Of a stretch of 64,000 nucleotides of DNA, positions 38,575 through 44,718 are shown piece after piece. The notes under the pieces were generated by a model, which did not search any database, was not told the DNA's origin, and saw nothing but the letters and a program-made list of their open reading frames with translations. Position 1 is the stretch's first letter. The number at the start of each line of letters is the position of its first letter. Origin of the DNA: Exiguobacterium sp. s124 (GTDB lineage Bacteria > Bacillota > Bacilli > Exiguobacteriales > Exiguobacteriaceae); assembly GCF_018617485.1 (NCBI RefSeq), contig NZ_JACSKH010000001.1, forward strand, positions 1,550,001 through 1,614,000, given 5' to 3'. Both the position numbers and the translations under genes were made by a program.

Positions 38575-39660
38575 TTACCTCGTTTCTTGTTCGCGCTCCT
38601 TCGCTCGAAGTTGCCCACAAGCAGCATCGATATCTGACCCTTGCTCGCGACGAATCGTCACGTTCACATTGCGGTCTTTGAGCACTTTTTCGAAGGCAAA
38701 GATTTGAGCTCTCGGTGTGCGTACATAATCGCGTTCCAATACGTGGTTAACCGGGATCAAGTTGACGTGACATTTGATTCCTTTCAACAAGTCAGCCAAT
38801 TGATGGGCATGGTCTTCTGTATCATTGACGCCACCAAACAATCCGTATTCGAACGTGATGCGACGACCGCTCTTCTCCGTATAGTAACGGACGGCATCCA
38901 TCAACTTGTCTAAGTCAAAGGCACGGTTGATTGGCATGAGACGTGTACGTAGTTCTGTCGTAGCCGCATGAAGCGAGATGGCGAAGTTAATGCGCATTCC
39001 TTCATCCGCAAACTTGTAGATTTTTGGAACGATTCCACTTGTTGATACTGTGATGTGGCGTGCTCCGATGTTGAGTCCGTGATCATGGTTGACCGTGCGC
39101 AAGAAACGCATTAACTCATCATAGTTATCAAACGGCTCACCGATTCCCATGACAACGATTGAGTCGACACGCTCACCTGTCGCGTCTAACGCACGCTGTA
39201 CGTCGAGCACTTGTGCCGTGATTTCACCGGCTTCTAAGTTTCGCTTCAATCCACCGAGTGTTGAAGCACAGAACGTACAACCGATTCGACAACCGACTTG
39301 TGTCGTGACACAAATTGAGTTCCCATATTCGTGACGCATGAGAACCGTTTCAATTGAATAACCGTCTTGAAGTTCAAATAAGAATTTGATTGTACCGTCC
39401 TGTGATTCTTGTTTGACCAATTCTTTTAACGTCGTCAATTGGAATGATGCTTCTAATTGGTCACGTAGTGCCTTTGGAACGTTCGTCATATCGTCGAATG
39501 ACGTGACACGTTTAACGTACATCCAATCATATAATTGTTTCGCACGGAATGATTTTTCTCCTGCTTCCACGACCCACGCTTCAAGTTCAGGGAACGTCAA
39601 CGAATAAAGTGACGGTTTTGCGCCTAAAAGTGGGGTTTTTTCTACTGCTTTTGGATTCAT
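38575..39660 (-). CDS. rlmN: RlmN, dual-specificity 23S rRNA/tRNA adenine-C2 methyltransferase
   Basis: Radical-SAM enzyme that methylates A2503 in 23S rRNA and A37 in some tRNAs. The 361-residue protein has the cluster motif in [20 protein letters not shown] near 120, [57 protein letters not shown], and the C-terminal catalytic Cys in [14 protein letters not shown]. It sits between rsmB and stp, as in B. subtilis. Confidence 0.97.
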
Positions 39661-39663
39661 TTT

Positions 39664-40995
39664 TTATACCTCTTTCTTAAATGCGGCGATATAGAAGCCG
39701 TCGGTCCCGAATGTCGTCGGTAATAGTTTTAATTCAGCACGGTCCGATGCCATGATCGGACGAACAGATTGTGGGAGACGTTCTCGTAACGTTTCGTCCC
39801 AGACCAATCCTTTTGATAACACATAGTCAGCCTGTGTCTCGTTCTCAGACGGATCAATTGTACATGTCGAGTAAACAAGCGTACCACCTGGCTTGAGCAG
39901 TGGCAATACGGCATCAATGATTTGTCGTTGAATCTTCGGTAAGTTCTCGAGCTGGGCTTTGTCTTTCGTCCATTTGATATCAGGCTTGCGACGAATAACA
40001 CCGAGCCCTGAACAAGGAACGTCCAGAAGGATTCGATCAAAACTCTCTTTTTCGAACTGTTCACCTGCCAGACGAGCATCAAGGGCAAGTGCGGTCACTC
40101 CATTGATGTGAAGACGTTTGGCTTGCTGGTCAATCAATTTCGCTTTATGTGGGTGTAAATCGAGCGCTGTGAGCGATCCACTTTCCATCCGTTCAGCCGT
40201 ATGCATCGCTTTCCCACCAGGGGCGGCACACGCGTCTAAAATATGGTCATCTTTCGAAACGCCGAGCGCATCTGCGACAAGCATAGAGCTCTCATCTTGA
40301 ACCGATAAAAGTCCTTCCTCGATGAATGGGGTCGAATGGACGTTGCCCGATTCGACAACGAGTCCATCGCTCGATAGTTCAGAGCGAGATGTCAAGACGC
40401 CCAAGTCGGCCAAGCGATTCATCATTTCGTCGACAGACGCACGTTTCCGGTTGACGCGTACCGTGACAGGAGCCGGCTCATTGTTTAACTGACAGATGGC
40501 TTCAGCCGTCTCGACACCGTAAAAATCAATCCAGTCCGAAACGAGCCACTTCGGGTGACTATGCTCAATCGAGATTCTCTCCGCATCCGTCAATTCACTA
40601 AAATCAGGGAATCCTTCACGGAGAACGTTACGTAACACCCCGTTCACGAACTTACTCGTCCCGAGATGATGTCCTCGTTTTTTTGCGATTTCGACGGCTT
40701 CGTGCAAGACGGCACGATCCGGTACCTTATCAAGGTAAAAAAGTTGATATACACTCATTCGAAGAAGCGGAAGCACGAACTTGTCGAGCTTCTTCGGAGA
40801 ACGGATTCGATCGTTTAAGATGTAGTCCAACGTCCCTTTCCGACTGAGTGTCCCATAGACGAGTTCGGTATACAGACCCACATCTTTCGGGGCAACTTTT
40901 TTTTGTTTTAATACATCATTGACGGCAATCGTTGAATACGCGCCGCCTTGTTCAATTTTCATCAGCGTATCGAGCGCTGCTTCACGTACGTTCAT
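39664..40995 (-). CDS. rsmB: RsmB, 16S rRNA (cytosine-967-C5) methyltransferase
   Basis: SAM-dependent m5C methyltransferase. The 443-residue protein has an N-terminal NusB-like RNA-binding domain ([20 protein letters not shown] to about 130) and a Rossmann domain with [38 protein letters not shown] (the PC catalytic motif) and [20 protein letters not shown] with the second catalytic Cys. It overlaps the end of the def-fmt fusion by 14 bases. Confidence 0.97.
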
Positions 40996-42382
40996 GAGTT
41001 CCTCCTAATCGGTCACCAACACGCAACTTCTGTCCAGCTCCGCGCATGAAGGTCGCACCATCCATTCGCTTTTTACCTGCTGGTTGTAGGTCCGTCACTT
41101 TGATGGCGACATTGTTTCCGGTCGCCACGACGAACCCGTCTTCTTCTAGGCGAATGACTTCTCCCGGTTGACCTGCACCGGTCGTCTTTTCTCCCATGAA
41201 CAGTTTCACCCGTTCTCCGTCAAGCGTCGAGTAGGCAGTCGGGAATGGGTTCATCCCTCGAATATGGTTATAGATGGCTTCTCCACCGATACTCCAGTCA
41301 ATCTGTTCGCGCTCACGGCTAATGTTCGGCGCAAACGTCACCTCCCGCTCATCTTGAGGGACCGCTTCAATCCATCCTTCTAAGAAAGCTGGAAGTGTGC
41401 GAATGAGAAGATCACTTCCCGCTACGGCAAGTTTATCAAATAGCGTTCCGACCGTATCCATCTCTTCGATTGGGACGATTGTATTCGCAATCATGTCACC
41501 CGCGTCTAACTTGTCGACCATATACATGATCGTCACACCTGTCTCCGATTCACCATCGATGATGGCTTGATGAATCGGGGCGCCTCCCCGATATTTTGGA
41601 AGAAGTGAGGCATGAACATTGATCGCTCCGTGAGGCGGTGCCTCGAGTAATGCGGTCGGCACGATTTGTCCATACGCTGCCGTGACGATGAGGTCCGGGC
41701 GCAACTCTAAAATTCCGGCATAATCTGTTCGAACTTTCTCAGGTTGTAAGACAGGAATACCGTGACGGAGTGCACACTCTTTCACAGGCGTTGGTTTGAG
41801 TTCACGTTTTCGTCCGACCGGTTTGTCCGGTTGCGAAACGACACCTACGACATTGTATCCTTCTTCGAGCAGTCGCTCAAGTACAGATACCGCAAATGTC
41901 GGAGTTCCCATAAAGACGATTCGCTTGTCTTTTCCAGGGTTTGGAACCGCTAGCTTGTCAGTGAACAAGACCCCATCCAAATGATCCATCTCATGCTGAA
42001 TCGCACGAGCGAAGAAACCGCTCGCTTGAATGGTATGCGTCCGGCCTTTCAAGTCCTGATTTTTGACGACGATCGACTCATGACGTTCCACGAATCCGAA
42101 TTCTCCTGGGATGCTCAAACATCCTTCAAGACCGACCTCACGTCCAGACGTTTCAATGATTTCAGGATTGATCAAGACGAGTGGACCCGTCTCATCATCG
42201 GTATGGACGACAGCGAGTCGCTGATTCAAATTGACCTGTGGCGCCGCGACTCCGACTCCGTCGTACTCATACATCGTATCAAACAAACGGTCGACCGTTT
42301 GTCGCAATTTTTTATCGAACTTCGTTACCGGTTCGCATGTCACACGTAAAATATCGTTTGGTACTTCTACTACTTTATACAT
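40982..42382 (-). CDS. def-fmt: Peptide deformylase / methionyl-tRNA formyltransferase fusion
   Basis: One 466-residue reading joins two enzymes that are separate neighbours in B. subtilis. Residues 1-144 are a deformylase with all metal-site motifs: GVGVAAPQ (42-49), EGCLS (86-90), QHEMDHLDG (129-137). A linker of about eight residues (AVPNPGKD) leads into formyltransferase from residue 153: [55 protein letters not shown], and a C-terminal tRNA-binding OB fold ([16 protein letters not shown]). The ATG at 42382 follows AGGTGG; the GTG at 42397 lies upstream of that site. Both halves look intact. Confidence 0.93.
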
Positions 42383-42393
42383 GTCTCTCCACC

Positions 42394-44718
42394 TCACATG
42401 AATACGTATGGGTTCACATCGATACTCATTTGATATTCTTTCTTACTGATTGCTTTTGCTCTTGCTTGTTGAAGTCTTGCTAGTTCCGCGTAAAGTGTGT
42501 CAGGTTGTTTCGTTTTAATGAACACTTGATAACGATACGCGTTCTTTAATTTTGATAACGGGGCAGGCATCGGACCATTCAAGCGGCTATTCTCTACTTG
42601 CGCTTGTAAAAAGTCCGATGCGAACAGTTCCGCTTCCGCTTTGGCGACGAGCGGGTTCTCTGCTGAGAACGTGACGAGCGTCAAAAACCAATACGGCGGG
42701 TGGTTCCCGACTTGACGAAGACCCATCTCTTTCGCAAAGAACGTTTCATAATCATGTTCACTCGCTGTCTCAATCACGTAATGGTCCGGGTTGTACGTTT
42801 GCACGAATGCCTCACCTGGAAGTTTGCCGCGCCCCGCCCTTCCCGCCACTTGGGTGACGAGTTGGAAAGTCCGTTCGGTCGCTCGGAAGTCAGGCATCCC
42901 GAGTGTCGCATCTGCCGCGAGTACTCCGACGAGGGTGACGTTCGGGAAGTCGAGTCCTTTGGCAATCATTTGGGTGCCGAGTAAAATGTCGGCCTCTCCT
43001 TCTTCAAAGCGTCGTAACAGTTGTTCATGGGAACCTTTCCGCGACGTCGTATCTTGGTCCATGCGGATGATGCGCGCCTCTGGAATCCGGTTCAACAGCT
43101 CCGTTTCGATCTTTTGCGTCCCTGATCCGAACTGCTTGATTTTTTTGCTGTTACACGATGGACACGTCGACGGCATCCCGACTTCGTAGCCACAATAATG
43201 ACACTTCAATCGATCACCATACTGGTGATACGTTAAATTGACGGCACAGTGCGGACACGTCATCCCTTCCCCACAGTCCCGACACATGACAAATGTCGTA
43301 AACCCACGACGGTTCAACAGAATGACACATTGCTCTTTTTTTGCGATTCGGTCGAGAATCCCGTCGAACAATTCTTCCGAGAACATCGTCGTATTGCCTT
43401 TTGCCAGTTCGCGGCGCATATCGATAATGTGGACAGGCGGCATTTCCCCGCCGTACCGCTCTTTCAAGTGCAAATAACGATATACACCTTTTTGCGCCCG
43501 TGCGTAAGATTCGAGAGAAGGTGTCGCACTTCCCAATACGACGGGACACCCATGATAGCGAGACCGCCAAATGGCGACATCACGCGCATGATAACGTGGA
43601 TTTTCTTCTTGTTTATACGTCGTCTCATGCTCTTCATCCAAGATGATGAGACCGAGACGGTCGAGCGGCGCAAAAATCGCAGAACGGGCCCCGACGACGA
43701 CGTCGACTTCTTTCCGCTTGATTTTACGCCATTCATCATACTTCTCACCTTTTGAAAGAGCACTGTGTAAGACTGCGACGCGTTCCCCGAAGCGACGCTT
43801 AAATCGCTTCACCATCATCGGGGTCAAACTGATTTCAGGCACGAGCAAAATGGCCTGTTTTCCTTCATCGATGACTTGCCCAATCGACTCTAAATACACT
43901 TCGGTTTTTCCGCTACCCGTCACGCCATGGACGAGCAATGTCTCTCCTGCATCCGCCTCATGAATCGCCTGGACCGCATTCGCCTGACTATCATTTAACT
44001 GCACAGATTCCTGTACTTGTTCAATCGTCGCGTAAGGGTCGCGATTCAATTCAACTTCCGTCAACCGTACCGCCCCAATGTCTTCAAGCTTTTGAAGTTG
44101 TGGGCGAGTCAATCCGATTTGACGAAGTGCCGACCAGTACATACGCGGCGTCTCTTCTAACTGCTGAATCGCTTCAAGCTGTTTTTTCGCGCGTTTCGAG
44201 ACGACGGTCGCTTCGAGCAGTTCGACGACGATGTCGGTTTTGACCGTTTTCTTCTCTTTCAGAACAGGGGCGAGGGTAAGCTCCCCTTTTTTAGCGAGTC
44301 CTAAAATGACAGACTGTATGTCTTTCGGATACTCCGATAAATGTGTCCCTAGACGAACACCGTCAGGCACATGCCCTTCTTTGATTTCTTTGTCATAACT
44401 GACTTTCAGCGCTGCAGGTAGCATCGCGAGAAGCGCGGAAGACCGAAAGCAAAGCGTCGTCTCTTTCACATGAATGGACAAGTCGAGCAGTTCATCTGTG
44501 AGTGACGATTCTTCATCTAATAAAGCTTCCAGTGGCTTCAATCCATCTCTCGTCCCGTCAGACGTGCCGACGACGATTCCTAACAGACGGCGTGAGCCGA
44601 AAGGAACCGAGACGCGCATCCCTGGTTCAATCAAGGATTCGAACTGTTCGGGCACTTCATAGTCAAACGGACGATCGATCGTGATCACCGGTGCATCGAC
44701 ATGGACGTGGGCAATCAT
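42394..44718 (-). CDS. priA: PriA, primosomal replication-restart helicase
   Basis: Rebuilds replication forks away from the origin. The 774-residue protein has an N-terminal 3'-end-binding domain, Walker [16 protein letters not shown] near 265, [20 protein letters not shown], the paired zinc module [17 protein letters not shown] and [17 protein letters not shown], and a C-terminal helicase domain with [19 protein letters not shown] and [16 protein letters not shown]. The ATG overlaps the coaBC stop. Confidence 0.97.

Follow-up and report, generated by a model that had tools for sequence, protein, structure and literature searches.

A fused peptide deformylase–methionyl-tRNA formyltransferase gene in Exiguobacterium and a second, apparently independent fusion in the Thermaerobacter class of the Bacillota

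The window, a 64,000-nucleotide stretch of the Exiguobacterium sp. s124 genome, carries on its minus strand a gene (40982..42382) in which def, for peptide deformylase (PDF), and fmt, for methionyl-tRNA formyltransferase (Fmt), are read as one frame of 466 codons plus a TGA stop. The start ATG lies at 42382 and the stop at 40984-40982; the preliminary description of this DNA had proposed the in-frame fusion without stating its strand. The predicted product has 466 residues and a mass, computed from the sequence, of 51.1 kDa. Domain searches bear the proposal out, with every match above its curated cut-off. Residues 1-145 (41948..42382) match Pfam Pep_deformylase (PF01327; 165.6 bits, cut-off 22.8) and NCBIfam TIGR00079 (pept_deformyl; 174.8 bits, cut-off 103.95). 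The Fmt catalytic domain occupies residues 153-330 (41393..41926; Formyl_trans_N, PF00551; 145.9 bits, cut-off 26.1) and the Fmt C-terminal domain residues 353-449 (41036..41326; Formyl_trans_C, PF02911; 84.6 bits, cut-off 21.1), and the equivalog family TIGR00460 (fmt) is matched at 334.1 bits against a cut-off of 201.5, so that both Fmt domains are accounted for. Only seven residues, 146-152 (41927..41947), separate the PDF and Fmt Pfam matches, and this junction holds no start codon with a ribosome site.

Both enzymes had been described as complete, and the motifs agree. All three PDF metal-site motifs are found: motif I, GVGVAAPQ, at residues 42-49 (42236..42259), whose G42, G44, A46 and Q49 are invariant among 52 fused proteins; motif II, EGCLS, at residues 86-90 (42113..42127); and motif III, HEMDH, at residues 130-134 (41981..41995). 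Together they presumably supply the metal ligands Cys, His and His and the catalytic Glu. On the Fmt side are NVHASLLP at residues 255-262 (41597..41620) and a DAGD motif with D293 (41504..41506); N255, H257 and D293, which we take to be the catalytic Asn, His and Asp, are likewise invariant among the 52 fused proteins.

The gene is tightly packed among others on the same strand. Its likely ribosome-binding site, GAGGTGGAG (42387..42395, minus strand), was picked by eye and overlaps the stop of the upstream gene (42394..44718), which from its protein sequence we take to be priA. Downstream, a gene that is presumably rsmB (sun) (39664..40995) shares its first 14 nt, from its ATG on, with the end of the fusion, and the gene that follows (38575..39660) is presumably rlmN; a further same-strand neighbour looks to us like a prpC-type phosphatase.

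An AlphaFold model of the fusion, made with 52 fused sequences (mean pLDDT 94.0, pTM 0.82), places the last PDF helix at residues 140-143, followed by the first strand of Fmt at 154-159. Foldseek superposes the PDF half of the model on 1ws0 (TM 0.93, rmsd 0.9) and the Fmt half on 4iqf (TM 0.96 of the target, rmsd 1.1). Among PDB sequence matches to the fusion, each of the best 60 of 61 covers one half alone. ArnA likewise contains, in fused form, a formyltransferase of this fold family, but its substrate is different and its partner is a decarboxylase, and only the formyltransferase half aligns.

The fusion itself is already known. A def-fmt fusion has been published for four Exiguobacterium reference genomes, together with the finding of a second PDF in all Exiguobacterium genomes and a functional test, in which a codon-optimised E. 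alkaliphilum fusion rescued growth of an E. coli delta def-fmt strain (Mol Biol Evol 2025, msaf311, PMC12690207). The window gene comes from the same genus, has the same fused architecture and likewise sits in a genome with a second complete PDF. What goes beyond the published fusion is its occurrence in every species sampled from the order, the anatomy of the junction, from which the fmt start has been erased, and a second origin in another class.

The sample from the order comprised 38 genomes, 19 of Exiguobacterium and 19 of its sister genus, and the protein search took in 81 genomes. All 38 species carry the one-frame fusion, each in a match that starts at query residue 1 and reaches at least residue 460; the junction was read base by base in 30 of them, and the search rows for the other eight contain no stop. 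A first impression that 12 of the 19 same-genus genomes are split was rejected on reading the DNA, where the single stop listed for each is the C-terminal one. Separate def and fmt genes were found among the sampled genomes only in other families. The fused proteins are 458-466 residues long at the 30 loci read on DNA, and the PDF and Fmt motifs are complete at all 33 Exiguobacterium loci tested (the 30 genomes plus L117, L178 and L187, of which L117 repeats genome G006). Within the genus of the window the C-terminus varies, ending at 461 residues in loci L010-L021 and at 466 in L001 and L004-L009. These data dispose of the worry that the fusion is a sequencing error, since no stop or frameshift is present at 41940-41965 and no sampled relative in the order has two separate proteins at the locus. 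The conserved architecture and the extra stand-alone def for which the preliminary description suggested searching were both found, the latter at C1:1673152-1673523 of the same genome with motifs GVGIAAPQ, EGCLS and HELDH.

The preliminary description traced the fusion to neighbouring def and fmt genes that lost the stop between them. The first part is upheld by split Bacilli, in which the same genes adjoin with the same enzymes and order (priA-def-fmt-rsmB) and many of the pairs share a frame with an intervening stop; the split pairs retain the def tail and stop, which the fusion lacks. Loss of the stop, although real, is too small a change. From the HExDH motif of PDF to the FMG motif of Fmt the distance is 66-87 nt (median 81) at 30 Exiguobacterium loci, compared with 98-231 nt (median 114) at 25 split Bacilli loci, drawn mostly from genomes with an in-frame pair, since it was these that yielded spanning matches. 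In 13 of the nearest split relatives, picked for a pair lying in one frame, it is 102-117 nt with one stop between. The Exiguobacterium junction is thus some 30 nt shorter than in split relatives, and it varies in sequence and length from locus to locus. In the 15 codons preceding FMG, none of the 30 Exiguobacterium loci has a start codon with an SD-like site, compared with 20 of 26 split Bacilli loci (one more than could be measured for spacing), and so the fmt initiation region is gone, not the stop alone. Half of the Exiguobacterium loci (15/30) have an in-frame GTG or TTG in this interval, without an SD-like site. The shortened junction and erased fmt start fit an in-frame deletion, or a stop loss followed by trimming. 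Judging from the relatives, adjacent def and fmt would have been joined in the ancestor of Exiguobacterium by a change that kept the frame but took away the tail and stop of def together with the ribosome site and start codon of fmt.

A second fused lineage emerged from a pattern scan for tight def-fmt junctions, which yielded at least 119 loci. At least four of these are fused, L087, L117, L178 and L187, the last three being Exiguobacterium. L087 belongs to a Bacillota MAG (SLSY01000245.1). Its protein, searched against 299 genomes of the phylum, gave 52 matches at an E value of 1e-110 or better, of which six are stop-free (G523, G624 and four genomes of one genus, including G452); all six proved to be fused on DNA. 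In the class of G452, to which Thermaerobacter marianensis belongs, def and fmt share one frame in at least 72 of 151 genomes by DNA reading. The count, which includes L087 as G702, is a minimum, since only some of the remaining 79 were read. Every class fusion counted was checked on DNA; among the 72 are a few that are cut short by a contig end or whose PDF is partial. The fused loci are L208 and L213-L290 (less L221, L251, L275-L278 and L280); L002 and L003 were left out of the frame scan. One motif, as the pattern was written, is missing in eight of the 72 fused sequences.

This second fusion was not found in the literature searched (open-licence PubMed Central papers), and the main text of the article on the Exiguobacterium fusion (PMC12690207) does not name Thermaerobacter.

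PF01327 searched over the 151 class genomes finds a single PDF in 58 of the 72 fused genomes, two in 13 and three in one. Assemblies in the class are often broken into scores to hundreds of contigs, and a missing second PDF may therefore be an assembly gap in some of them; 41 of the 58 single-PDF genomes reach 90% completeness or more with contamination of 5% or less, and G452 and G406, both of the Thermaerobacter genus and each a single contig, have one PDF each.

Class junctions were measured at 61 of 71 fused and 32 of 38 split loci, the fmt-start motif being unfound in the others. The median HExDH-to-FMG distance is 96 nt in fused versus 161 nt in split loci, and 7/61 versus 18/32 have a start codon with an SD-like site ahead of FMG. 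Some start codon within 15 codons before FMG occurs at 46 of the 61 fused loci, including those seven with an SD-like site, and at one of the 61 such a site accompanies the FMG methionine itself. Two further features were seen in the Thermaerobacter genus (L209-L212), a Gly/Ala/Pro/Glu-rich insert in the Fmt C-terminal region and a basic stretch ahead of PDF in frame. An apparent triple fusion with the upstream gene in G714 (a frame of 987 residues) was rejected by eye, the upstream part being a low-complexity GC-rich frame.

The relationship of the two lineages was examined with a 148-row tree of concatenated PDF and Fmt, which took in 11 of the 30 Exiguobacterium loci and 23 split Bacilli loci and left out L199, L214, L277 and L312 (near copies or contig ends), L278 (no PDF) and L208 (fused). 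All 11 Exiguobacterium rows group in a single clade (SH-aLRT 100) that lies among split Bacilli; the branch dividing Bacilli from the class rows has support 98. On a hand-picked 48-row subset, with the bootstrap unsettled, a single clade of all fused rows was rejected (p-AU 9.25e-05); on the same 48-row tree a single clade of the class fused rows was not rejected (p-AU 0.308). Within the class, the 148-row tree calls for seven changes (gain or loss), two of them forced by well supported branches. Rejection of the single clade and separate placement on the trees thus point to at least two origins, the class fusion having apparently arisen independently of that in Exiguobacterium.

Stop-free pairs did not turn up in two larger controls, neither among the 57 spanning matches listed from 360 Bacilli genomes outside the order nor among the 86 listed from 398 genomes of the phylum of G829 (Burkholderiales). 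Both controls cover pairs matched as one span, and long-linker fusions would appear there as two separate matches. Nor did three further single genomes yield a spanning match free of stops. G050 and G075 had the appearance of fusions but were rejected, both being split on DNA.

We are confident that the window gene encodes one bifunctional PDF-Fmt protein and that its Fmt is never made without its PDF. PDF comes first and fmt has no recognisable initiation site of its own, so Fmt would always be made behind PDF. Residues 1-145 would deformylate finished proteins, and the remaining residues would formylate initiator Met-tRNA. Bifunctionality is very likely, given two intact active sites and the published rescue by a related fusion; for the window protein itself deformylase activity is a prediction, by analogy with the complementation published for the E. 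alkaliphilum fusion (PMC12690207).

As to why such a gene is kept, formylation without deformylation would be a harmful state, and a single chain would exclude it; we propose that coupling of this kind may be what maintains the fusion. PDF and Fmt pass no intermediate or product between them. Because Exiguobacterium has a second PDF, the idea of a fail-safe is weak there. Also counting against the overall reading are the 14 of 72 fused class genomes with more than one PDF, the eight of 72 sequences short of one motif, and the start codons that persist ahead of FMG at 15 of 30 Exiguobacterium loci and at 46 of 61 fused class loci, seven of the latter with an SD-like site. We think it probable that the PDF-Fmt fusion arose at least twice in the Bacillota and that in the Thermaerobacter class it is widespread and, in most fused genomes, the sole deformylase, so that formylation would never occur without deformylation.

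A strong rival to coupling as the cause of retention is neutrality: a deletion that happened by chance in a tight operon would have become fixed, and the fusion would persist because both halves fold independently; we put its chance a little under even, and fixation without selection accounts for the pattern about as well as coupling does. The junction is short and varies in sequence and length, def and fmt are already in-frame neighbours in many split relatives, and the seven changes on the class tree leave room for several gains or losses. Against neutrality, all 38 species sampled from the order have kept the fusion, as have 72 or more of the 151 genomes sampled in a different class, and stop-free pairs are absent from the 86 matches listed in the other phylum and the 57 listed in Bacilli outside the order.

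Another reading takes the PDF half for a leftover, with the stand-alone PDF deformylating and only the Fmt half mattering. The stand-alone protein at C1:1673152-1673523 has all its motifs, and in B. subtilis the main PDF is reportedly a stand-alone one, YkrB. A second PDF is, moreover, published for all Exiguobacterium genomes (PMC12690207). We nevertheless consider a leftover PDF unlikely: all 33 Exiguobacterium loci tested have intact motifs, a mutant without def and fmt is rescued by a related fusion (PMC12690207), and 58 of the 72 fused class genomes show one PDF match only.

The preliminary description had further suggested that one chain could pass both activities near the ribosome. PDF does act on nascent chains at the ribosome, but Fmt acts on free Met-tRNA. 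The segment that follows the core of E. coli PDF (chain residues 149-168 of 168), which we take to be its ribosome-binding helix, has no aligned counterpart in the fusion, and no ribosome-binding feature was recognised in the fusion in analyses that included no dedicated search for one. Co-delivery of both enzymes to the ribosome is thus very unlikely as the point of the fusion. That two proteins are still made, by internal initiation or by cleavage at the junction, is more doubtful still: the start codons with SD-like sites retained at 7 of 61 class fused loci and the GTG or TTG codons, without such sites, at 15 of 30 Exiguobacterium loci speak for it, but none of those 30 loci has a start codon with an SD-like site and in the model the FMG methionine lies where the first Fmt strand (residues 154-159) ends.

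If the wider result, a second and independent fused lineage, holds, then both ends of the formyl-methionine cycle have been joined independently and long kept so, often as the only deformylase found. The fused lineages would then offer a natural test of why bacteria keep def beside fmt, and of whether formylation without deformylation is the danger. There may also be a bearing on PDF inhibitors. The commonest route to reduced susceptibility is reported to be inactivation of formylation, through fmt, folD or glyA (PMC12690207); in fused species with a single PDF, mutations that disrupt the shared gene would tend to abolish both activities at once.

Other arrangements of these genes were seen in passing. 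In two Clostridia, L082 (an Oscillospiraceae MAG) and L155 (Clostridiaceae bacterium M8S5), tandem PDF frames lie directly before fmt. Phage records labelled Enterococcus and Listeria (H1-H3) contain a def-fmt stretch with 49-50% identity to the window protein, which is perhaps host DNA.
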